The notes under the pieces: model-generated
What the model was told of the DNA's origin: nothing
Seen by the model: only the letters and a program-made list of their open reading frames with translations
Databases searched by the model: none
Position numbers and translations under genes: made by a program
Virus record (IMG/VR): IMGVR_UViG_3300007559_000008
Location: 1 to 40,854 of that record
From: a virus
DNA: 40,854 bases
Strand: one strand, 5' to 3'
Shown here: in pieces, positions 4,610 through 33,782 of the stretch
Numbering within the stretch: position 1 is the first letter of the stretch
Layout: the number at the start of each line of letters is the position of its first letter

Positions 4610-7600
4610 ATGGCAACAAACAGTAAAGTATTCGTATCACCTGGAGTGTATACATCAGAAGTTGACTTAAGTTTCGTAGCTCAGAGTGTTGGTGTAACAA
4701 CGTTGGGTATTGTTGGTGAAACCTTGATGGGTCCAGCATTTGAACCAATCTTTATCACTAATTTCGATGAGTTTTCGACTTACTTTGGAGGAACTTCACC
4801 TGAAAAATTCATTAACACACAAATACCTAAATATGAAGCCGCTTATATTGCAAAGGCTTACTTACAACAATCTAACCAATTGTTCGTAACAAGAATCTTA
4901 GGTTTATCAGGTTATGACGCGGGACCATCTTGGTCAATTAGCATTAAGGCTAACGTAGACCCTTCAACAATTGATTTTTATTGTGAAGACCCTACGGTAG
5001 TTGATTGTCAACCAGCGTGTAATGACTTTTTAACTATAGACTTCGCAATTGATTTCTCAGGTTGTACAAATAGTCTTAACTCTATTGAGTTTTTAGACCC
5101 AAGTCAAATTCCTACGGAAATTGCTAGCAGAATTGATTTACCTTATGAATTGTTTAATGGTAGTACTAGTACGTTAAGAACTAACATGAATAATCAAATT
5201 TTTGATATCATGAACACACCATCAACTGAAGACACTTCAATCTATTACTACGGAGCGATTTCAGGAGATACTTATGAGGCTTTTGCACCAATATTCACAG
5301 CTGAAACTAACGTAATGGGTGTTGAGTCTATTGACGCATCACTTATTAATTACGCAGCACCACAAAACGACCCTTGGTACTACGCATTATTTGATAACTT
5401 AGGTAACGCGGCTTACACAGGTTATTCATTCTGGTCAATTGTTACAGGGTTAACTATGACACCTGTAACTACGACAACTACAGTAGCACCTGTTACTACA
5501 ACAACAACTACTGACCCTTGTGTAACACCTGGCCCAACAACTACTACAACTACAACAACTGCGGCACCTGTTAATTGTTATACAGGTACTTTAATTGGTA
5601 GGATTTATGTTTATTCAGGTACGGCTTACACCGACTACGATGACGTAGTTATTGCAACACTTCGTTCAAGAGGTTTGGCAACTTACGGTACTGACAATGG
5701 TGCTGTTTACGAAGTTTCAGGTTTAACCGATGTAACTATGGACTGTGTAGGTCAATACTCAGGTGTGACTAAAAACCCATATTCAACATTCGGATTAAAT
5801 GTGACTAATAAAGAAGGTAAACAATTCTTCTTTGAAACATCTTTCCAAAATTCAGATACACAATATCTACCTAAAGTATTTGGTTCATCAAACTTTGCAA
5901 AACCAAGAACAGTTGTTCCGTTATTTGTAGAAGAGAGATTCCAAGCAATGTTAAACTACGGATGGAGAAAAGGTTATGTTAGAGGTTTAAGTTGTGACTT
6001 AACCGCTCTACCTGACGCAAGACAAGGTAGTGACCCAACATCAATTGCATTCTACTTAGAACAATACCAATCACCGGAGACTCCATGGATTGTTTCTGAA
6101 TTACGTGGTAATAAAGTTTATAACTTATTTAAGTTTAGATTAATTTCTGATGGTGACGCGGCAAATACATTAGTTAAAATATCAATGGCTAACATGTCGT
6201 TCAATAACGGAACATTTGATATCTTAGTTCGTGACTTCTTTGATACAGACGCTAACCCTGTTGTTTTAGAGAAATTCACTAACTGTACTATGAACCCGAT
6301 GGAAAATTCATTCATCGCACAAAAAATTGGTACTGTTGATGGTGAGTACTTATTGAACTCTAAATACATTATGGTTGAGATGAACGAAGACGCTCCGATT
6401 GACGCACTACCTTGTGGTTTCGACGGATTCAACTTCAGAGAGTACGCAGGTGTTAAACCTCCGTTCCCAATCATTAAAAATAAATACGACTATCCTGGTG
6501 AAGTTGTTTACAACCCACCATTCGGTTTAGCTTCAGGTGCGGACGACGCAACTAGAAGTAACGGTGATAATGTACGTAGAACTTACTTAGGTATTTCCGA
6601 CACTATTGGTATTGACGTTGATTACTACTCTTATAAAGGTAAACAATTACCATTAGATATCTGTACAGATACTACAGGTGAACCTTGGAATTGGAGAAGT
6701 AAAGGTTTCCACATGGACGTTAACGCATCGGCAATTACAATTCCTGATGTATTTGTAACAAGTGGTACACCGGCATTCGTTTGTGGTGACGCACCATTTA
6801 TTCAAGACCCTGACAACTCTGAAAACCCATACTACAGAATTTACGCTCGTAAGTTCTCAGTATTAGCACAAGGTGGTTTCGACGGATGGGATATCTATAG
6901 AGAATATAGAACTAACACTGATAGATTTGCAGTTGGTAGAGCAGGTTACTTAAAAGGTGCATGTCCTTCAATTAAATACCCAACAGCAACAGGATGGGGA
7001 GCGTTCAAACAAATCACTGTTGGTGACGCAACTCAAACATTTGCAAATACTGACTACTACGCATACTTATTAGGTCAACAAACATTTGCTAACCCTGAAG
7101 CGGTTAACATCAACGTGTTTGTAACACCAGGTATTGACTACGTAAACAACTCAAACTTAGTTGAGGAAGCAATCGACATGATTGAAACTCAAAGAGCTGA
7201 CTCACTTTATGTGTGTACTACACCTGACTACAATATGTATGTACCTTCAAGTACTAACCCTCAAGATTTCATATATCCTCAAGAGGCGGTAGACAACTTA
7301 GATAACACTGGTATTGACTCTAACTATACCGCGACTTATTACCCTTGGGTATTGACTCGTGATAGTGTAAATAATACACAACTTTACTTACCAGCAACGG
7401 CTGAGGTTACAAGAAACTTAGCATTAACCGATAATATTGCTTACCCATGGTTCGCAACGGCAGGTTACACTCGTGGTATTGTAAACGCGGTTAAAGCACG
7501 TAAGAAGTTGACTCAAGAAGATAGAGACGTATTGTATCAAGGTAGAATTAACCCAATCGCAACCTTCTCTGATGTAGGTACTGTAATTTGGGGTAATAAA

Positions 7601-7939
7601 ACTCTACAAATTAGACAATCTGCTCTTGACAGAATTAACGTAAGAAGATTATTACTACAAGCTCGTAAGTTGATTTCAGCGGTTTCAGTTAGATTATTGT
7701 TTGAACAAAACGATGCTAAAGTAAGACAAGACTTCTTAGACGCGGTGAACCCTATCTTAGACGCAATTAGAAGAGACCGTGGTTTATACGACTTCCGTGT
7801 AACCGTATCTTCAGACACTGCTGACTTAGATAGAAACCAAATGACAGGTAAGATTTACATCAAACCAACTCGTTCACTTGAGTTTATCGACATCACGTTC
7901 TACATCACTCCGACAGGAGCATCTTTCGAGAACATCTAA
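4610..7939 (+). CDS. gp18: Tail sheath protein, gp18-like, with Thr-rich insert
   Basis: An 1109-aa contractile sheath subunit; T4 gp18 has 659. The N terminus (SPGVYTSEVDLSF, GIVGETLMGPAFEP, FGG) and the C terminus (YPWFATAGYTRGIV, RINPIATFSDVGTVIWGNKT, NVRRLLLQARKLIS, ending in FIDITFYITPTGASF) are the standard sheath signatures that form the conserved inner domains. The extra length is in the outward-facing middle. Residues 284-320 are two Thr-rich linkers, after which a beta-rich, Cys-containing insert (about 322-385) precedes the return to sheath sequence. The insert probably decorates the outer tail surface. A strong terminator follows the gene, and the leader is A-rich, as expected for a major virion protein. 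Confidence in the sheath identity is high; the insert's role is unknown. Confidence 0.95.
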   Translation: MATNSKVFVSPGVYTSEVDLSFVAQSVGVTTLGIVGETLMGPAFEPIFITNFDEFSTYFGGTSPEKFINTQIPKYEAAYIAKAYLQQSNQLFVTRILGLSGYDAGPSWSISIKANVDPSTIDFYCEDPTVVDCQPACNDFLTIDFAIDFSGCTNSLNSIEFLDPSQIPTEIASRIDLPYELFNGSTSTLRTNMNNQIFDIMNTPSTEDTSIYYYGAISGDTYEAFAPIFTAETNVMGVESIDASLINYAAPQNDPWYYALFDNLGNAAYTGYSFWSIVTGLTMTPVTTTTTVAPVTTTTTTDPCVTPGPTTTTTTTTAAPVNCYTGTLIGRIYVYSGTAYTDYDDVVIATLRSRGLATYGTDNGAVYEVSGLTDVTMDCVGQYSGVTKNPYSTFGLNVTNKEGKQFFFETSFQNSDTQYLPKVFGSSNFAKPRTVVPLFVEERFQAMLNYGWRKGYVRGLSCDLTALPDARQGSDPTSIAFYLEQYQSPETPWIVSELRGNKVYNLFKFRLISDGDAANTLVKISMANMSFNNGTFDILVRDFFDTDANPVVLEKFTNCTMNPMENSFIAQKIGTVDGEYLLNSKYIMVEMNEDAPIDALPCGFDGFNFREYAGVKPPFPIIKNKYDYPGEVVYNPPFGLASGADDATRSNGDNVRRTYLGISDTIGIDVDYYSYKGKQLPLDICTDTTGEPWNWRSKGFHMDVNASAITIPDVFVTSGTPAFVCGDAPFIQDPDNSENPYYRIYARKFSVLAQGGFDGWDIYREYRTNTDRFAVGRAGYLKGACPSIKYPTATGWGAFKQITVGDATQTFANTDYYAYLLGQQTFANPEAVNINVFVTPGIDYVNNSNLVEEAIDMIETQRADSLYVCTTPDYNMYVPSSTNPQDFIYPQEAVDNLDNTGIDSNYTATYYPWVLTRDSVNNTQLYLPATAEVTRNLALTDNIAYPWFATAGYTRGIVNAVKARKKLTQEDRDVLYQGRINPIATFSDVGTVIWGNKTLQIRQSALDRINVRRLLLQARKLISAVSVRLLFEQNDAKVRQDFLDAVNPILDAIRRDRGLYDFRVTVSSDTADLDRNQMTGKIYIKPTRSLEFIDITFYITPTGASFENI
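5459..5569 (+). repeat. Thr-codon repeat encoding two mucin-like linkers in the sheath
   Basis: Runs of ACN codons encode PVTTTTTVAPVTTTTTT, a short DPCVTPGP spacer and a second run of eight threonines before AAP. Codons are mixed (ACT, ACA, ACG), so the tract is only a partial DNA repeat, but it can change length in whole codons without breaking the frame. Such linkers are flexible, exposed segments. Confidence 0.8.
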
Positions 7940-8945: not shown

Positions 8946-9434
8946 ATGGCTGATTTATTAATGAAAATGCCGATACCTTATGAACCTAAAAGACAGAACA
9001 GGTTCATTCTTCGTTTCCCAACTACATTGGGGATTAACGAGTGGTTCGTAGAATCAACGGCAAGACCAAATATTACTGTTAACCCTGTGGAGATTCCATT
9101 CTTAAACACATCAACTTATGTTGCAGGTAGATTTACTTGGGCAACAATCCCTGTTAAATTCCGTGACCCTATCGGACCTTCAGCATCACAAGCCTTGATG
9201 GAGTGGGTACGTTTATGTGCGGAGTCTGTGACAGGTCGTATGGGTTACGCTGCGGGTTACAAAAAGAACGTTGACCTTGAGATGTTAGACCCAACGGGTG
9301 TTGTTGTTGAGAAATGGATTTTAGAAGGTACTTGGTTGACAGGTGTTAACTTCGATTCATTGGCTTACAACACTGACGCTTTAGCGAGTATTTCAGCGAC
9401 ACTTCGTATGGATAGATGTGTACTTGTATACTAA
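8946..9434 (+). CDS. gp19: Tail tube protein, gp19-like
   Basis: A 162-aa protein, almost the same length as T4 gp19 (163). The start MKMPIPYEPKRQNRFILRFP, the middle VESTARPNITVNPVEIPFLN and the end ATLRMDRCVLVY are typical of the gp19/Hcp-like beta-barrel that stacks in hexamers to form the inner tail tube. It follows the sheath, as in T4, with only the HAD gene inserted. It has its own TATTTAT element, a long A/C-rich leader and its own terminator, so it is probably transcribed as a single-gene unit at high level. Confidence 0.95.
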   Translation: MADLLMKMPIPYEPKRQNRFILRFPTTLGINEWFVESTARPNITVNPVEIPFLNTSTYVAGRFTWATIPVKFRDPIGPSASQALMEWVRLCAESVTGRMGYAAGYKKNVDLEMLDPTGVVVEKWILEGTWLTGVNFDSLAYNTDALASISATLRMDRCVLVY

Positions 9435-9549: not shown

Positions 9550-10308
9550 ATGGAACCAAATATCATTGACGCAGGAACTCAAAATTTTAACTTACCCCAC
9601 GATGTAGTATCACTACCTTCAAAGGGTTTGTTTTACAAATCAAAAAAGAAATCTATTAAGGTTGGTTATCTAACCGCAAATGACGAGAACAATTTAATTG
9701 GTTCCGTTAATAATGGTAATGACAGTATTATCATGACATTACTTAGAAATAAAATTTACGAACACGATTTACGTCCTGAAGAATTAATTGATGGTGACAT
9801 TGAAGCTATCTTAATTTATTTAAGAAACACATCATTTGGCCCTGAATATAAGGTAACATTAAATGACCCACAAACAGGTAAATCATTTGAACACACCCTT
9901 ATTTTAGATGAGTTAAATATTAGAAGAAGCGAACATCAACCTGATGAATACGGTTTATTTACTACGACATTACCAAAAACAGGCGCAACCGTTAAATTAA
10001 AAGTATTAAGTTTCGGTGAAAACATTGAACTTGGTAAAATGGCTGAACAATACCCAACAGGTAGAGTCGCTCCTACTGTAACTTGGAGATTGATGAAACA
10101 GATTGTTGAGGTTAATGGTGACCAATCAAAAGAAAAAATCGCTGAGTTCGTTAACGTATTACCTATTATGGACTCTAAGTATATCCGACAATTTATTCGT
10201 GATAACGCCCCTTCATTAGACTTAACCCAAACAGTAAAAGCCCCGTCAGGAGAAATGGTGAACTTTGATATCACCTTTGGGGTTGAGTTTTTTCGGCCTT
10301 TCTTCTAA
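9550..10308 (+). CDS. gp26: gp26-like baseplate/tail-assembly chaperone, short form
   Basis: A 252-aa protein. LPSKGLFY (22-29), the LTANDEN segment, and GDIEAILIYLRNTSFGPEYKV are hallmarks of the T4 gp26 family (T4 baseplate protein family), which acts in assembly of the central hub and tail. The gene ends with TTT TTT CGG CCT TTC TTC TAA. The overlapping frame continues with a conserved-looking sequence, so a frameshift would give a longer form of about 300 residues. The gene lies immediately before the tape-measure gene, where tailed phages keep their frameshifted assembly chaperones. The start ATG at 9550 has a weak AGAG upstream and no TATTTAT; GTGTTTATAA at 9498 is the nearest resemblance. 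Confidence 0.8.
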   Translation: MEPNIIDAGTQNFNLPHDVVSLPSKGLFYKSKKKSIKVGYLTANDENNLIGSVNNGNDSIIMTLLRNKIYEHDLRPEELIDGDIEAILIYLRNTSFGPEYKVTLNDPQTGKSFEHTLILDELNIRRSEHQPDEYGLFTTTLPKTGATVKLKVLSFGENIELGKMAEQYPTGRVAPTVTWRLMKQIVEVNGDQSKEKIAEFVNVLPIMDSKYIRQFIRDNAPSLDLTQTVKAPSGEMVNFDITFGVEFFRPFF

Positions 10309-12451: not shown

Positions 12452-15400
12452 ATGTCAGATAGTACGTTATCATTTGTTAATAGTTCCACATTCAGAAACT
12501 CTCTATTAGCCAAAAATTTGGAACCTTACGATGTGCCGGGTGTGTATACTCCACCAGGTGGTCCACAAGCATATGAAACTACACTATCATCGTTAACCGT
12601 TGTTGATTCACCTGATAATTTAATTACTGACGGAGTATTTGCTAACAATTTATATCCTTTAAATGAATTCGGTCCTAACGGTGGTTATAATACTAACATC
12701 ACATTCAACGGACCACCAATTCCTGTAAACTCAAATCAGGGGGAATACGACCCAACAGATACTGTACTTGATTTAGTAAACGAGTTTTATATTGATGCCG
12801 CTTACATTGAAAACAGATACGGTCCTGATGGTGGGTTTAATGATATGGTTATCATTACGGACATTCAGAATAATAATAAAATTTATCAGCCATATTGGAA
12901 TCCACCTTCTTACAATCCTTCATCTTATAGTCCTTACACTATATTAACAAGTCCTGACCCTGTCGGTTCAAACGGACCTTTGTCTCAGGATTCATATATT
13001 GCAAAAATAGGTGCCGAACAATTAAATAAGGCTTTCCAAGCTCGAGTTGACGCTGAGATTTTTCAAGCAACAATCGGAGCTGTTAATATTGATTCATTAA
13101 GTGACCCGTTTGAAGCAAGTTTAATTGCCACAGGACAAGAACCTTTAGTTTATAGAAATTGGAGAATTACGGTTCCTGAAAACCCTATTATTGCTGCAGC
13201 CGACTTTGCAACACGATTGGCGAGTGCTTATTGGCCTGTTTCACCAATTCCTGGTGATTATTTTGATGATAGTAAAGGTCAAAGTCAATCACCACAAACA
13301 TCATTAGCCTTAAACGTCACCAATCAATTAACGGGTGGATTCTTAGGACCAATTTTAAATTTCAGAAGGAATCCTTCAGAAATATTCATTGCCAACTCAG
13401 GTAACGGTCAAAGGTCGGCTCTATTCCGTAACATTAATTATAATAGATATCAACCTGGTTATGAATCTGTATTAGGTGGCGCTGCAGGTATCGTACAAGG
13501 TTTATCGTCACTCGCAACATCTATTATTAATCCTAATGGAACTTTAAATGGTGGTTATTATGTAGGTAGTAGAAATGCTGACCCATCAACAATTACCTCA
13601 CCACCAAACCAAATTCCTGTAAACCCTTATGGACAACAAGTTGAATCACCTGTTTATGGTCCATCTGAATTAGGTATTTTATATGAAGGAAACCAAGATA
13701 ATTTAAACTTTGGTTTAGCCGCCAAACCACTTTCTGATGGTGGTGGTATTGATGGTCAATTTGTTTGGACTTCGCCTAAATATAAAGGTAATGCAGGATT
13801 TAAAGCAACACCTGGTGGAGGAACAGGCTCACTAGACCAAGAATTTAATTTAATTAGTTCACAATACAGTCGTGACGAATCAACCAACTTCACATTCAAA
13901 GAAAACTCAATCTTAGACCAAACTCAAAGGTTAATTGATTCTGCCGACAATGTGACAGGTTTATCTCGTTTAAAACACGTAGGTAACGCAATGAACCAAG
14001 TTAGTAAAGTATTCCACGATGGTTACAAAGAAATGACTAAAGGTTCTCAAGTTGTGTCATATAAAGACGATTCAACGGGACAAGAGGCGGGTATTGAGTA
14101 TTGTCGTGTGTTCACTAAAGATACTCCTTACTATACTTATGCTGACTTACAAAAGACAGACGGTATTACTAATTCAGGACGTAGATTTGCTTGGTCTGTT
14201 TTTGATAATACATTTAACTTAAATATTGCCCCATTAAAGAACCCGGGTTCAACCAACATCATTCCAAATAATGATATGGGTCAAGGCGGTTATGCTAAAA
14301 AGTACATGTTCTCAATTGAAAATTTAGCTTGGAGAACATCAAGTAGACCTGGATTTACTTATGATGAATTACCTGTATGTGAAAAAGGTCCAAATGGTGG
14401 ACGTGTAATGTGGTTCCCACCATACGATATTAAATTCAGTGATTCTAGTTCAGCAAACTGGAATCAACAATCATTCTTAGGTCGACCTGAACCAATTTAT
14501 ACTTACAAAGACACTAGTAGAACAGGTAGTTTAAGTTGGAAAATGATTGTTGACCACCCGTCAATACTTAATGTGATTGTTGACAAACAGTTGAAGGGTA
14601 TTAATCGTGAGAAGTTAAATTCAATGATAGATTCATTCTTTGCGGGGTGTTTAAAATACGATATCTACCAATTAGCCCTTAAGTTTAACACAATACCTAC
14701 AAAAGATTTATATACCTATCAAGAGATATTAAATAACCCTAATCTAACCCCTGAAGAGGCTAAAGGTGTACAGGAAAATATTCCTAAACAAAATACTGGC
14801 GGTTTAACAGGACCTGGTTCAGACACTGGTGGTGATGGTAAAACTGATGTTAAGACAACTGAAGATACTTCAGGTAATGATGTTTTAAATAAGTTTAATG
14901 ATTTGGCATTTTATTTCCACAACGATAGACCTAACCCTCATACAGACAGGCCAACATCAACGATTGATTTTGTAACAAGTTTTAATTATTACAAAGATGT
15001 TGAGTACCCTAAGTATCAATCAAACGCTGACTCAATATTTAAACCCGACTCAACATATTGTAAGAAAAATCCGGCGTATTGTGCGGACAACAAGCCCGTT
15101 AATGAGTTTTGGAATAACGTTATTTTGGATAACTGGACATTTATCGACAACCCAACTGAGGGTTTGATTGAAGAAATACACAAACTTGTAACAACTAAGG
15201 ATGCTACGGTTGCTATAACACTTATAGGTTCCGCCTCAGCTCCCGCAGAAAAAAAATATAACGTAAATCTATCGTCAAGAAGGGTTGACTCGGTTAGACA
15301 ATATCTATTGACGGGTAAAGGGGGTAAACTTAAAGACTATACGAGTAAAATAACCATTAATGGTAAACCTCTTAACGAATCTTCAGGTCCAAGTTCTAAT

Positions 15401-17704
15401 ACCCTAGGTGAAGAAACTACGGTTGTACCCGTATCAGCAAAAACCAAAACATCTGGAAGAAGCGTTAATTGTACAACAGATATTATTGACGGCAGTACAG
15501 GTAAAGTAACATCTAATTCGCAGATTTATTCAATCGATGCGATGGCTTGTCGTAGAGTTAAATTTAGTGCTACAGTTACTATACCACCAAAACCTGTTAA
15601 TCCCACAGACCAAACAAATTCGGATAAACCTGAACAAACAAAAACTATTGAAACAACACTAATCACACCAACTAAACCAAAACCAACGGTTAGTATCGAG
15701 AAAAAACTTAAAGAAGGTATTGGTAAAAAGATTTTAAGACAATTATTATCTGAGTGTGATTACTTTGAGGTTATTAAGGAAGAGGTTCCGATGTTATACG
15801 ACTCTATTAGAGAGAAGATAAAGTACTTTAATCCCGCTTTCCACTCAATGACACCTGAAGGGTTAAACGCTCGTCTAACGTTCTTAAATCAGTGTGTTAG
15901 ACCTGGTGAAACCATTCCTGTAATTGACCCTGACGGTAAACCAAAATACGATAATGCGGTTAATACTTCGTTTGGAGCTCCACCAGTCTTAATCTTAAGA
16001 ATCGGTGACTTCTATAATGGTAAAATTATCCCTAAGAGTGTTGGTTTTACTTATGAACCATTAGTGTTTGATATGAACCCTGAAGGTATTGGTATCCAAC
16101 CTATGATTGCCAACGTTACCCTATCATTTGACTTTATTGGTGGTCACGGACTTGCCAAACCTGTTGAACAATTGCAAAACGCACTATCGTTCAACTACTA
16201 CGCAAACACTGAAATCTACGATGAAAGGTCAGTATGGACAGACGACTCATTCCAAAAAATTGACCAAGCTTTAATAAAAGAGTTGGTTCAAGATGTACCT
16301 CAAACAGGTTTAAGTGCTGTTGACAATCAAACACAAAATGCGTTTGGTGATACAATTGGTACTATTAAGAGTTATGATAATGTGACTGGTGGTCAGACAG
16401 GAGAAACATCTTATAATAAAATTATGGATGATATGTTAGGTGTTGTACCAGAATATACCGTATCCATTTTAAATAAATTGGAAAGTATTGTTAAACAAAC
16501 TAACTATGGTATTTTACAATTAGTTAATTATGAAAGAAATTATATAAATGGTCAAGTTGCGGGAAACGTTAATTTTAATCCTGTAAATACTTACGAAACA
16601 TTTCTTTATGGTAAACCAAAATTAGACGCTCCTAAATCATCAACCAATGGTTCCGACAGCAATTTATTTAAATCATTATTCAATCAATGTATTAAAGATG
16701 TTGAAATTAATGAAAACCCTATTGTAAAAGAATTATTAATTAATTACTATAACAACGAAGTTACTGATGAACTTAAAGTTATTAAAAAGAATATTAATAA
16801 TTTTTATGTTAAAATTAATGACACATTATCAAACGACATCCAAACAATCATTAGTGAAATTTGTGGTATTGAACAAACATTAATATTAAATATTAAGAAA
16901 TTAGAGTTATTAAATGGTACTACAACATTAGCCAATGCAAAACCAATTGATGGTAAAAAAACTGAGGAGGGAACGCCTTTAGTATACAACTTAAAAGGTA
17001 CCAATAAAGTTAGTAAAACTACTAAGGATTCTGATGTAACCAACACTTTACATGAATTACAAAGAGATATTTATAAAATATACACCTACTTAAGACGTGT
17101 TAATGTCTTATATACCGCAAAACCAGAAACAGGTACTGATTACGCGTCGACAGGTGCCCCATTAATGCCAGGGTCTATCCTGCCTTTTGCCGTGATAACA
17201 GATGGAACTGGTTCATCAGGGTCTAATTATTATTTAACTAATAATGAACAGTTTAGACCAATAGATAAAAGTTATTTAAATACTGAATATAGACAGAGAA
17301 TGTTTATGTTATTAGCTCGAACATTTGCCGATAAAAATAAATTAACCGAATTCAATAATTATGTTTTAACCAATAATTTAAAAGCTAGTAATAAGTTAAA
17401 AAATAAGTTTGAAAAAATTACTAAAGACATTGCAAATAATTTTGAAAAAGAACTTGAAAAAGAAGAAAAGTTATTTGAAAAATATCGAGACAGTAAAGTA
17501 TATAAAGATTTAACAGAAGGCTCCGAGGAAAAATTATACCCTTCAGGTAAAGAAAGAATTTTAGAATATTCAACAGTACCTGACGAGTCAACACAAGAAG
17601 ATTCTAAATCAAGATTAAAAGATTTATTTTCTGAAATAAACACGATAACGGATAATAAATATTTTATTCAGTCACCAACACAACACGCGGTAAAATTAAA
17701 TTAA
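12452..17704 (+). CDS. Giant baseplate/tail-tube junction protein with internal OmpA-like domain
   Basis: A 1750-aa protein. Residues 1-500 are low in charge and rich in Asn, Pro, Gly and Ser (repeated GPNGG/GPDGG). About 600-750 holds the block VMWFPPYDIKFSDSS, NWNQQSFLGRPEPIYTYKD and RTGSLSWKMIVDHPS, which recalls gp48/gp54-like tube-initiator proteins. Residues about 818-1010 form an OmpA-like domain: the first strand LAFYFHNDRPNP, then ITLIGSASAPAEKKYNVNLS followed by SRRVDSVRQYL, with the NxxLSxxR core intact. About 1080-1240 returns to a baseplate fold (ILRIGDFYNGKIIPKSV, then VTLSFDFIGGHG). The C terminus is charged and helical. I infer a baseplate component with a peptidoglycan-binding module. 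The next gene starts 1 base after its stop. Confidence 0.75.
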   Translation: MSDSTLSFVNSSTFRNSLLAKNLEPYDVPGVYTPPGGPQAYETTLSSLTVVDSPDNLITDGVFANNLYPLNEFGPNGGYNTNITFNGPPIPVNSNQGEYDPTDTVLDLVNEFYIDAAYIENRYGPDGGFNDMVIITDIQNNNKIYQPYWNPPSYNPSSYSPYTILTSPDPVGSNGPLSQDSYIAKIGAEQLNKAFQARVDAEIFQATIGAVNIDSLSDPFEASLIATGQEPLVYRNWRITVPENPIIAAADFATRLASAYWPVSPIPGDYFDDSKGQSQSPQTSLALNVTNQLTGGFLGPILNFRRNPSEIFIANSGNGQRSALFRNINYNRYQPGYESVLGGAAGIVQGLSSLATSIINPNGTLNGGYYVGSRNADPSTITSPPNQIPVNPYGQQVESPVYGPSELGILYEGNQDNLNFGLAAKPLSDGGGIDGQFVWTSPKYKGNAGFKATPGGGTGSLDQEFNLISSQYSRDESTNFTFKENSILDQTQRLIDSADNVTGLSRLKHVGNAMNQVSKVFHDGYKEMTKGSQVVSYKDDSTGQEAGIEYCRVFTKDTPYYTYADLQKTDGITNSGRRFAWSVFDNTFNLNIAPLKNPGSTNIIPNNDMGQGGYAKKYMFSIENLAWRTSSRPGFTYDELPVCEKGPNGGRVMWFPPYDIKFSDSSSANWNQQSFLGRPEPIYTYKDTSRTGSLSWKMIVDHPSILNVIVDKQLKGINREKLNSMIDSFFAGCLKYDIYQLALKFNTIPTKDLYTYQEILNNPNLTPEEAKGVQENIPKQNTGGLTGPGSDTGGDGKTDVKTTEDTSGNDVLNKFNDLAFYFHNDRPNPHTDRPTSTIDFVTSFNYYKDVEYPKYQSNADSIFKPDSTYCKKNPAYCADNKPVNEFWNNVILDNWTFIDNPTEGLIEEIHKLVTTKDATVAITLIGSASAPAEKKYNVNLSSRRVDSVRQYLLTGKGGKLKDYTSKITINGKPLNESSGPSSNTLGEETTVVPVSAKTKTSGRSVNCTTDIIDGSTGKVTSNSQIYSIDAMACRRVKFSATVTIPPKPVNPTDQTNSDKPEQTKTIETTLITPTKPKPTVSIEKKLKEGIGKKILRQLLSECDYFEVIKEEVPMLYDSIREKIKYFNPAFHSMTPEGLNARLTFLNQCVRPGETIPVIDPDGKPKYDNAVNTSFGAPPVLILRIGDFYNGKIIPKSVGFTYEPLVFDMNPEGIGIQPMIANVTLSFDFIGGHGLAKPVEQLQNALSFNYYANTEIYDERSVWTDDSFQKIDQALIKELVQDVPQTGLSAVDNQTQNAFGDTIGTIKSYDNVTGGQTGETSYNKIMDDMLGVVPEYTVSILNKLESIVKQTNYGILQLVNYERNYINGQVAGNVNFNPVNTYETFLYGKPKLDAPKSSTNGSDSNLFKSLFNQCIKDVEINENPIVKELLINYYNNEVTDELKVIKKNINNFYVKINDTLSNDIQTIISEICGIEQTLILNIKKLELLNGTTTLANAKPIDGKKTEEGTPLVYNLKGTNKVSKTTKDSDVTNTLHELQRDIYKIYTYLRRVNVLYTAKPETGTDYASTGAPLMPGSILPFAVITDGTGSSGSNYYLTNNEQFRPIDKSYLNTEYRQRMFMLLARTFADKNKLTEFNNYVLTNNLKASNKLKNKFEKITKDIANNFEKELEKEEKLFEKYRDSKVYKDLTEGSEEKLYPSGKERILEYSTVPDESTQEDSKSRLKDLFSEINTITDNKYFIQSPTQHAVKLN

Positions 17705-17705
17705 T

Positions 17706-18032
17706 ATGAGAGCAAAACAATATTATAACAGATATAATAACTTCATTATCAATGGAGAGCAAACTGTTGTGCCTTATGTTACATTACCAAATAAAAGTAC
17801 TGATAAAAGATACATCTATAAAATAGGTCAAACTAGATTAGATAAAGTTTCACAACAATATTATGGTACACCATATTTTGGTTGGTTAATTTTATTAGCT
17901 AATCCAATAAGTGGTGGTTTAGAATGGAATATAAATGACGGTACTATATTGACAATTCCATTTCCTTTAATAGCTTCTTTACAAGACTATAAAAATGCTT
18001 TAGACAACCACTTCTTCTATTATGGTAGGTAA
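17706..18032 (+). CDS. gp53: gp53-like / LysM-like baseplate protein
   Basis: A 108-aa protein. The region YKIGQTRLDKVSQQYYGTPY followed by FGWLILLANPI, GLEWNINDGTILTIP and FPL has the shape of a small LysM-like fold and of the T4 gp53 wedge-protein family (196 residues in T4), here reduced to the core. In T4, gp53 joins neighbouring wedges around the hub; LysM-type proteins in other myophages connect hub and tube. It lies between two giant baseplate genes, 1 base after the first, and the next gene starts inside its last codons (11-base overlap), so the three are clearly co-translated. Confidence 0.7.
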   Translation: MRAKQYYNRYNNFIINGEQTVVPYVTLPNKSTDKRYIYKIGQTRLDKVSQQYYGTPYFGWLILLANPISGGLEWNINDGTILTIPFPLIASLQDYKNALDNHFFYYGR

Positions 18033-31355: not shown

Positions 31356-33782
31356 ATGTCATTAAAGATTAAAAAAAGAAGTGGGGAGGAGGTATCCTTC
31401 AACCCGCAGAAAATTTATAACAGAGTAAAAAGAGCGGCGAAAGGTTTGAGTGTGAACTCAGACGAGATTTTTATTAAGGTAATCACTTCAGTACCAACTG
31501 AGGGTTTAATTACCACAAAAGAACTTGATAAATTAGTGTATGAGATTGCCGCATCATATACAGGTAGTCATCACGATTACTCACGTTTAGCGTCTTCAGT
31601 TGCAATTTCTTCATACCATAAAGAAACCAATGAGAGTTTCTCTGAGACTATGAATTTGTTACACGGACACGGTATTATCAATGAGATTCTAATTGATACA
31701 ATCAATAAATACGGTGGTGAGAATATTGATAAAGTTATTAATCATGAGAATGATTATAACTTCGATTACTTCGCTTGGCGTTCATTACAAGAGATGTATC
31801 TTTTGAAAACACCGAGTGGGGTTGCGGTTGAAAGACCACAACATATGTACATGAGAGTTGCTCTTTGGGTTACTAAAACATTTGATGAGGCGGTTGCTTA
31901 TTACCAATCATTATCACAACAGTTAATCTCACCGGCAACGCCTATTATGATTAACGCTGGTACAAAGGTACCTCAGTTGGCATCATGTGTGTTACACTAC
32001 AATAACTCAGACTCTCGTGACGGACTTTTAGGTACCATGAGAGACATCTCAACATTCTCATCTGATGCCGCAGGTATTGGGTTAGCAATGTCTAACATTC
32101 GTAGTAAAGAAAGTCGTATTAGTACTTCAGGTGGTTACGCGGGTGGATTATTAAAGTACCTTAAAATTGTAAACGAATCATTAAGATTCTTTAATCAACA
32201 AGGTCGTCGTCCTGGTAGTGCCGCAATCTATTTGGAGCCATGGCACAAAGACATTTTTGACTTGTTGGATATTAAAAAGAACACAGGTGCTGAAGAACTT
32301 AGAGCTCGTGACCTATTCACCGCATTATGGTTACCTGACAACTTCATGAGAGCTGTCGAAACTAACGATGACTGGTACTTATTCTGTCCTAACGATATCA
32401 TCAAAGCGGGTATTAAACCACTTCAGGAATGTTACGGTCAAGAATATGAAAATAACTATAACAGAGCGGTACAGTTAGGTTTAGGTAAAAAAACCAAAGC
32501 ACAAGAGATTTGGAATAAGATTATTGAGTCCCAAGTTGAAACTGGTGTTCCTTATCTATTGGCTAAGGATAGTGTTAACTCTAAGAGTAACCACCAAAAC
32601 ATTGGTGTTGTAAAACAATCTAACCTTTGTGCAGAAATCGTTCAGTATACCGATGAGGAAACAACCGCTATTTGTACTTTATCTTCTATGGTTCTTAAGA
32701 ACTTTATTAAAGATGGTAAGTTTGACTTTAAATTACTTCACGATGAGACAAGAAAAGTTGTTAGAGCATTGAACAAAGTTGTTGATGTTAATAACTACTC
32801 AACTGAGAAAGGTCGTAAGGGTGGTATGGAACAAAGAGCAATTGCCATTGGAACACAAGGACTTGCTGACGTATTCTATTTAATGGATTACATATTCACA
32901 TCACCTGAAGCTCGTCAATTGAACAAAGATATTTTTGAAACTATCTATTTCGCGGCGGTAAGTGAAAGTAACGAATTATGTAAGACTGAAGAATACCAAC
33001 CATATAAGTTCTTTAAAGGTTCACCATTATCTAAAGGGGAATTCCAATTTGATATGTGGGGTCTTAAAGAAGATGAACTTTCAGGTTTTTGGGATTGGAA
33101 ATCTTTGAAAGAAGATGTCGCTAAATGGGGTGTTTGTAATTCATTATTCACCGCTCAGATGCCTGTCGCATCTTCCGCTAAGATTACAGGTTCTTACGAA
33201 ATGACTGAACCTGCTCACTCAGCTATCTTTAACCGAAGAGTAGTTGGGGGTGAGATTATGATTGTGAATAAGTATCTCATCCATGATTTCGAGAAGATTG
33301 GGATTTGGTGTGAAGATTTAAAAAACGAAATTATCATGAACGATGGTTCGGTTCAAAACATCAACTTCAACAATTACCTTGACCCTGAAGAGAAGACTTA
33401 CAACAAGAAAGTTAAAAGAATTGAACATTTAATTCCAAAATACAAAACTATTTGGGAGATTTCACAAAGAGAATTAATTGATATGGCGGCTGACAGAGCA
33501 CCATTCATTGACCAAACACAATCAATGAATATTTACATGTCAAACCCAACACTATCAAAAATTTCTTCATCACATTTCCACTCATGGAAAAGAGGTTTGA
33601 AAACTTTGTGTTATTATGTTAGAACTAAAGCGATTTCAACGGGAGCGAAACATTTAGCGGTCGATATATCTAAAGTTGGAAGAAACAATTCGGTTAAAAC
33701 GGAATCACCAACAGTAACATATACACAAGAAACTCAGAAACCTACTGACTCTCAATTTGAATGTTTTGGTTGTTCATCTTAA
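31356..33782 (+). CDS. nrdA: Ribonucleotide reductase large subunit (class I, eukaryote-like)
   Basis: An 808-aa protein. The first about 95 residues are an ATP-cone (KIKKRSGEEVSFNPQKIYNR), the allosteric activity site. Catalytic residues are in place: C211 and C440 form the active-site disulfide, and N423, C425 and E427 lie in NLCAE. The C terminus CFGCSS (C803, C806) is the redox-shuttle pair. Blocks such as ERPQHMYMRVALWV, RARDLFTALWLPDNFM and HSWKRGLKTLCYYVRT follow animal R1 more closely than E. coli NrdA. It lies 18 bases after nrdB (order B-A, the reverse of E. coli) and closes the replication operon before a strong terminator. No NrdC or NrdG gene is seen here. Confidence 0.95.
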   Translation: MSLKIKKRSGEEVSFNPQKIYNRVKRAAKGLSVNSDEIFIKVITSVPTEGLITTKELDKLVYEIAASYTGSHHDYSRLASSVAISSYHKETNESFSETMNLLHGHGIINEILIDTINKYGGENIDKVINHENDYNFDYFAWRSLQEMYLLKTPSGVAVERPQHMYMRVALWVTKTFDEAVAYYQSLSQQLISPATPIMINAGTKVPQLASCVLHYNNSDSRDGLLGTMRDISTFSSDAAGIGLAMSNIRSKESRISTSGGYAGGLLKYLKIVNESLRFFNQQGRRPGSAAIYLEPWHKDIFDLLDIKKNTGAEELRARDLFTALWLPDNFMRAVETNDDWYLFCPNDIIKAGIKPLQECYGQEYENNYNRAVQLGLGKKTKAQEIWNKIIESQVETGVPYLLAKDSVNSKSNHQNIGVVKQSNLCAEIVQYTDEETTAICTLSSMVLKNFIKDGKFDFKLLHDETRKVVRALNKVVDVNNYSTEKGRKGGMEQRAIAIGTQGLADVFYLMDYIFTSPEARQLNKDIFETIYFAAVSESNELCKTEEYQPYKFFKGSPLSKGEFQFDMWGLKEDELSGFWDWKSLKEDVAKWGVCNSLFTAQMPVASSAKITGSYEMTEPAHSAIFNRRVVGGEIMIVNKYLIHDFEKIGIWCEDLKNEIIMNDGSVQNINFNNYLDPEEKTYNKKVKRIEHLIPKYKTIWEISQRELIDMAADRAPFIDQTQSMNIYMSNPTLSKISSSHFHSWKRGLKTLCYYVRTKAISTGAKHLAVDISKVGRNNSVKTESPTVTYTQETQKPTDSQFECFGCSS

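Follow-up and report, generated by a model that had tools for sequence, protein, structure and literature searches.

A tube-initiator-like baseplate protein carrying an OmpA-type domain, a possible wall-docking module, in a group of uncultured phages

Introduction

Little is known of what keeps a contractile tail in the cell envelope from the moment of puncture until DNA enters, and we know of no phage component that fixes the tube in the wall at that stage. For T4, what happens at the membranes is still described as unknown (PMC7600766). The stretch of DNA studied here (IMG/VR record IMGVR_UViG_3300007559_000008, positions 1 to 40,854; hereafter "the window," 40,854 nucleotides) raises this question in a particular form, as it encodes a 1750-aa protein in which a first-pass annotation had noticed a peptidoglycan-binding OmpA/MotB-type fold lying between two halves of what looked like a gp48/gp54-type tube-junction region. 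What kind of baseplate protein is this, is the embedded domain truly of the OmpA type, and what might such a domain do at the base of a tail tube?

Results and Discussion

A contractile-tail module surrounds the 1750-aa protein

The 1750-aa ORF is set in a contractile-tail module (Table 1), in which the genes run in the order sheath, tube, hub, probable tape measure (judged from its position only), 1750-aa protein, 108-aa gp53-like protein and a 2149-aa protein, with gp25- and gp6-like wedge genes farther along. The gp53-like protein has a counterpart at the same position in Flavobacterium phage immuto (phrog_7145, E=1e-10) and in Microcystis phage Mel-JY01. The 2149-aa protein has a weak tail-protein match, and no peptidoglycan hydrolase was found in it by Pfam, NCBIfam or PDB sequence searches. 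For the 1750-aa protein itself, PHROGs gave no informative match; its N-terminal ~600 residues (window 12452–14251) show strong conservation among the relatives and have no match in any known family.

Table 1. Features of the tail module and of the 1750-aa protein, in window coordinates.
Feature	Position	Strand	Evidence
Tail sheath	4610..7939	+	phrog_23 E=1.6e-54; Pfam Phage_sheath
Tail tube	8946..9434	+	phrog_4542 E=1.1e-24
Baseplate hub protein	9550..10308	+	phrog_150 E=1.1e-16
Tube-initiator / baseplate protein, 1750 aa, with OmpA-like domain inserted	12452..17704	+	ORF translation
Tube-initiator (tail-tube-like) domain, first part, residues ~610-708	14279..14575	+	profile-profile match to uninterrupted homologues
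Mainly helical arm, residues 709-775	14576..14776	+	family conservation; low-confidence helices in model
Flexible linker 1, residues 776-805	14777..14866	+	2.77 bits/column; 20-52 residues long; 76% P/T/S/G/N/D/Q/E/K
OmpA/Pal/MotB-type domain, residues ~803-1045	14858..15586	+	PF00691, AlphaFold, structural matches
AFYFHNDRP, residues 819-827, strand 1 and following loop	14906..14932	+	N824, P827 invariant; D825 in 46/52
Putative ligand-site motif GSASAPAEKKYNVNLSSRRV, residues 926-945	15227..15286	+	AS(x)7NxxLSxRR instead of TD(x)7NxxLSxxRA
Last strand AMACRRV, residues 1030-1036, counterpart of OmpA NRRV strand	15539..15559	+	C1033 invariant
Flexible Pro/Thr-rich linker 2, residues 1046-1078	15587..15685	+	2.67 bits/column; 26-65 residues including a few flanking
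Tube-initiator domain, second part, residues ~1128-1245	15833..16186	+	collinear, conserved (0.59 bits), weak profile match
gp53/LysM-like small baseplate protein, 108 aa, directly downstream of the 1750-aa protein	17706..18032	+	phrog_7145 baseplate wedge subunit E=9e-6; LysM by eye only

An interrupted tube-initiator domain

Position-equivalent homologues of the 1750-aa protein occur in immuto (gp236, 716 aa) and Mel-JY01 (WWT39329, 2255 aa), which share its gene position and a homologous tube-initiator domain but, unlike it, are without the OmpA domain. A profile of the first half of the tube domain (residues 600–712) matched these homologues at E=1e-8 with 96% probability (E=1.7e-7 in another profile comparison), and the HMM matches between this half and the uninterrupted homologues were reciprocal. 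The second half lies in the right place and order, its match being weak, with a score equalled by 1 of 60 column shuffles. Where the homologues have one helix of ~22–26 residues, the 1750-aa protein has ~425 residues made up of helices, flexible linkers and the OmpA domain, the two linkers being its most variable segments.

Because an AlphaFold model of residues 470–1295 left the tube halves at low confidence, we modeled the domain of an uninterrupted homologue instead (mean pLDDT 63, ~75–84 in most of the core). This model matched the tube initiators of P1, T4 (chain 5iv5_BE, presumably gp48, which its numbering to 358 fits), AFP, PVC and A-1(L) with VIA Z of 9.8–10.8 and Foldseek E-values down to 8.7e-7; a PDB sequence search with the homologue's profile returned nothing. 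The tail-tube-like barrel is accordingly seen in the uninterrupted homologue and assigned to the 1750-aa protein by homology (first half E=1e-8, second half weak). The best explanation of these matches is that the 1750-aa protein is a tube initiator, forming the ring that joins tail tube to hub at the position that gp48/gp54 occupy in T4, and its gene order fits a tube-hub location. Profile matches and homologue fold thus support the proposed insertion of an OmpA domain into a gp48/gp54-type tube-junction domain, and the "two halves" are right in substance, though strictly a single tube-like domain has been opened up at the junction of a strand with a helix.

Compared with the tube initiators of T4 (gp48/gp54), extracellular contractile injection systems (eCIS), A-1(L) and P1, which share the fold of the uninterrupted homologues' domain and a similar gene order, the window protein is far larger (1750 aa) and carries its OmpA-type insertion between strand and helix; no such insertion was found in other tube initiators among solved structures or in the literature searched. 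The Mel-JY01 homologue (L084:22008-28775) has a feature of its own: upstream of the tube-initiator domain, repeats of ~50 residues that resemble one another (SSIFDWDGKREQAPSVDFFDI...) form a long array.

The inserted domain has the OmpA fold

Several lines of evidence bear out the OmpA fold. In the ORF translation, residue 818 is the start of LAFYFHNDRPNP and residue 926 that of GSASAPAEKKYNVNLSSRR, after which comes VDSVRQYL. The Pfam profile PF00691 matched residues 898–970 of the whole 1750-aa chain at E=4e-5 (24.3 bits, under the 27.2-bit cut-off) and the excised region at E=4.2e-6 (27.5–27.8 bits, above it), and the genome scan gave a score of 29.6 bits; taken singly, 31 of 37 diverse relatives matched (E<=0.01). 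Searching all PDB sequences with a profile of the family's domain ranked OmpA, Pal and PorE chains first (E down to 9.5e-5). In the AlphaFold model of residues 470–1295, pLDDT was ~77–96 across most of 813–1049, with a dip near 56, and mostly 30–50 outside the OmpA domain, so that the model is confident for the OmpA fold and not for the flanking tube halves. When the domain model was compared by VIA-align with 992 chains, all 50 matches listed were OmpA-like by title (OmpA, Pal, MotB, TagL, PorE, YfiB, ZorB and similar), with Z from 8.3 to 5.5 and rmsd from 2.6 to 7.8; a Z of ~8 is moderate alone and becomes persuasive because the matches listed all belong to one family. Membership in PF00691 follows from the score of the excised domain together with the alpha/beta sandwich fold. 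The first-pass annotation had bounded the domain at about residues 818–1010: its motifs lie where it placed them, but the domain ends near 1045, at the strand AMACRRV.

With the C-terminal domains of Pal, OmpA, MotB and PorE, the window domain has in common the fold, the profile and the site Asn, Leu and Arg; it differs in having Ser for Asp, larger insertions and two invariant cysteines, C1007 and C1033 (window 14858–15586; invariant across 52 representatives). No report of OmpA domains in phage baseplates was found in the open-access literature searched. Sharing a fold with Pal and OmpA could also mean mimicry, i.e., that the domain rivals these host proteins in binding the wall and so weakens the envelope where the phage enters. 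We consider this very improbable, as the few copies per particle are unlikely to outcompete abundant host proteins and the sequence gives no hint of it.

A conserved, Asp-less putative ligand site

OmpA-like domains bind diaminopimelate through the motif TD(x)7NxxLSxxRA (PMC5104382), which is not found in its standard form in the family because the Asp is replaced, by Ser in 112/112 distinct members, with Asn and Arg invariant; we accordingly class the domain by its OmpA fold and not as an established diaminopimelate binder. Among 52 representatives under 85% identity, A928, S929, N937, R943 and R944 are invariant, position 940 is Leu or Ile and position 941 is Ser or Ala. Two earlier observations on the site therefore hold: the Arg that grips diaminopimelate is conserved throughout our alignments, and the Asp of the usual motif is absent from every member. 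The first-pass annotation took GxAS for the Bacteroidota variant of the motif; PorE of Porphyromonas gingivalis, the one Bacteroidota domain compared, has the Asp.

The site evolves far more slowly than its surroundings. Its seven columns average 0.08 bits as against 2.07 for the remaining OmpA domain, ~0.6 bits for both tube halves and ~2.7 bits for the linkers; no set of seven columns among 200,000 drawn at random was as low, a figure that describes the contrast rather than testing function, the columns having been chosen before the count from the known motif only. Invariant residues also lie at the end of strand 1 (F/W-Y-F-x-N-D/N-x-P, 820–827) and in the last strand (MACRRV), and in TagL the loop after strand 1 lines the crevice (PMC8253398). 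As a guess, D825 (46/52) could stand in for the lost Asp; more broadly, the Asp's job may fall to the invariant Ser929 or, in the adjacent loop, to the conserved N824/D825.

Judged from these alignments, a slow pocket within a fast-varying domain argues for a ligand site over a packing surface, and the domain appears exposed rather than packed, because its surface evolves fast and its flexible linkers are variable. The main competing explanation is structural domestication, in which the domain would no longer bind the wall and would serve as a spacer or as a contact to wedge or hub, like the LysM-type domains of many baseplates. Such a fate has precedent in the LysM folds that are structural parts of the Mu, Milano, A-1(L) and T4 baseplates (PMC11915804, PMC10966104), and it would suit the loss of the ligand Asp throughout the family: domain 3 of Treponema pallidum Tp0624 has the OmpA fold with, as in the window domain, the Asp lost and the Arg kept, and, its Asp having been lost among other changes, it does not bind diaminopimelate (PMC5104382). 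Tp0624, however, has also lost the Asn, has an altered pocket and carries Ala at the Asp position, whereas in the window family the Asn is invariant and the Asp position is Ser. A constrained pocket on a varying surface is, moreover, the opposite of what is expected of a packing domain, long variable linkers lie on either side, and homologous baseplates manage without the domain. We therefore regard a purely structural role as rather unlikely.

Less probable again, in our estimate, is a changed specificity, with the pocket accepting, for instance, a stem peptide that is amidated or modified in some other way, a different envelope ligand, or a protein's free C-terminus, whether from host or phage. 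The invariant Ser for Asp points this way, as do the invariant R943, N824, Y936, M1031, C1007 and C1033, all outside the standard motif (PMC5104382); against it, the standard-site Asn, Leu and Arg are retained, and no ligand is known.

Spread within the phage family

A scan of IMG/VR found 550 contig stretches that encode relatives of the 1750-aa protein, and a tblastn search with the protein against the 50,697 phage records of a cultured-phage collection found none. Across 198 loci examined, the OmpA domain is present in 160/160 family ORFs and absent from 34 outgroup ORFs; the relatives form a large uncultured phage group with the OmpA domain as a fixed trait. Chance or a frame artefact behind the domain is rejected by its retention in all 160 related ORFs. 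Of nine large records (126–309 kb), eight have one PF00691 match each and one has none at that threshold, yet the family member at this last record's locus (L164) has the OmpA domain in the alignment. Searched with PF00691, the complete records of immuto, Mel-JY01 and LR756508 gave no match; the family profile picked up a single doubtful one in LR756508 (E=0.0017), which contains a stop. In one relative (L050:1446-6440), an in-frame stop falls within the OmpA domain and leaves two ORFs, of 822 and 842 aa, through either an error in sequencing or a genuine split. The GTDB genomes scanned for a cellular source of the domain yielded no relative sharing the family's signature.

OmpA-like sequences also occur in the 636-kb phage LR756504, which has four PF00691 matches. 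Its 502-aa protein with two OmpA-like domains (L218:15295-16803; LR756504.1 ~493294-494802) carries HTSSPAKPEYNIILAKRR, with Ser for Asp, in the first of them (family profile E=1.1e-5), and has a gp6-like wedge gene as well as a baseplate gene in its neighbourhood, which hints that OmpA-type domains entered baseplate regions more than once. A 719-aa protein of the same phage (L219:13026-15185, minus strand, LR756504.1), by eye VWA-type/metallopeptidase-like (HELFH, DTSGSMSG), has an OmpA-like stretch with the canonical HTD motif.

As to the host, the nearest cultured-phage relatives of the window's ribonucleotide reductase large subunit (31356–33782) are from Cellulophaga and Tenacibaculum phages (Flavobacteriia), and the window's gp6-like protein is closest to those of Mel-JY01 and immuto. 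A Bacteroidota host is likely on these sequence affinities.

A model of wall docking

On the evidence above, we propose that the OmpA domain is a flexible peptidoglycan-docking module on the tube-initiator ring, a reading to which we give an even chance. Six copies of the 1750-aa protein would sit around the tube base (position and copy number being taken from homologues). On contraction, the ring would follow the spike through the outer membrane, as in T4, where gp48/gp54 accompany the tube and enter the periplasm after gp5/gp27 (PMC7600766); the OmpA domains would then seize peptidoglycan stem peptides around the hole, and the tube tip would be held in the wall against recoil or turgor during DNA entry. 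The ligand would probably be the stem peptide, contacted without the usual Asp. Precedent for an OmpA-type domain that anchors a contractile machine to the wall exists in TagL of the type VI secretion system (PMC8253398), with the difference that TagL is a membrane protein of the attacker cell with the standard Asp, whereas the window domain is in a tube initiator and would act on the target's wall.

Several points speak against docking. The change from Asp to Ser is found in every member, while binding by Acinetobacter OmpA reportedly depends critically on D271 and R286 (D271 shown with D271A; PMC6572160), and the Asp-less Tp0624 is non-binding. The tube halves of the 1750-aa protein are not confidently folded, and the second is weak by sequence. 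Lastly, the invariant residues may also reflect folding or a protein partner. Our ordering, with docking ahead of a structural role and that ahead of another ligand, reflects the pocket and surface pattern—a conserved pocket with a drifting surface is more easily reconciled with ligand binding than with packing—set against the missing Asp and the structural LysM precedent. The fuller proposal, that large phages of a widespread clade use some six OmpA-type domains on each particle to dock on stem peptides via an Asp-less site and so hold the tube during DNA entry, we advance tentatively, as somewhat short of an even chance.

Implications

The finding that tube initiators tolerate large insertions helps in reading giant baseplate proteins left blank by annotation. 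With 550 contig stretches from a single scan, the family is a common one, and it is without a cultured member in the phage collection searched. A wall-binding fold on a ring that enters the periplasm would make the holding of a contractile tail in the envelope, from puncture to DNA entry, testable through one isolated domain and point mutants.
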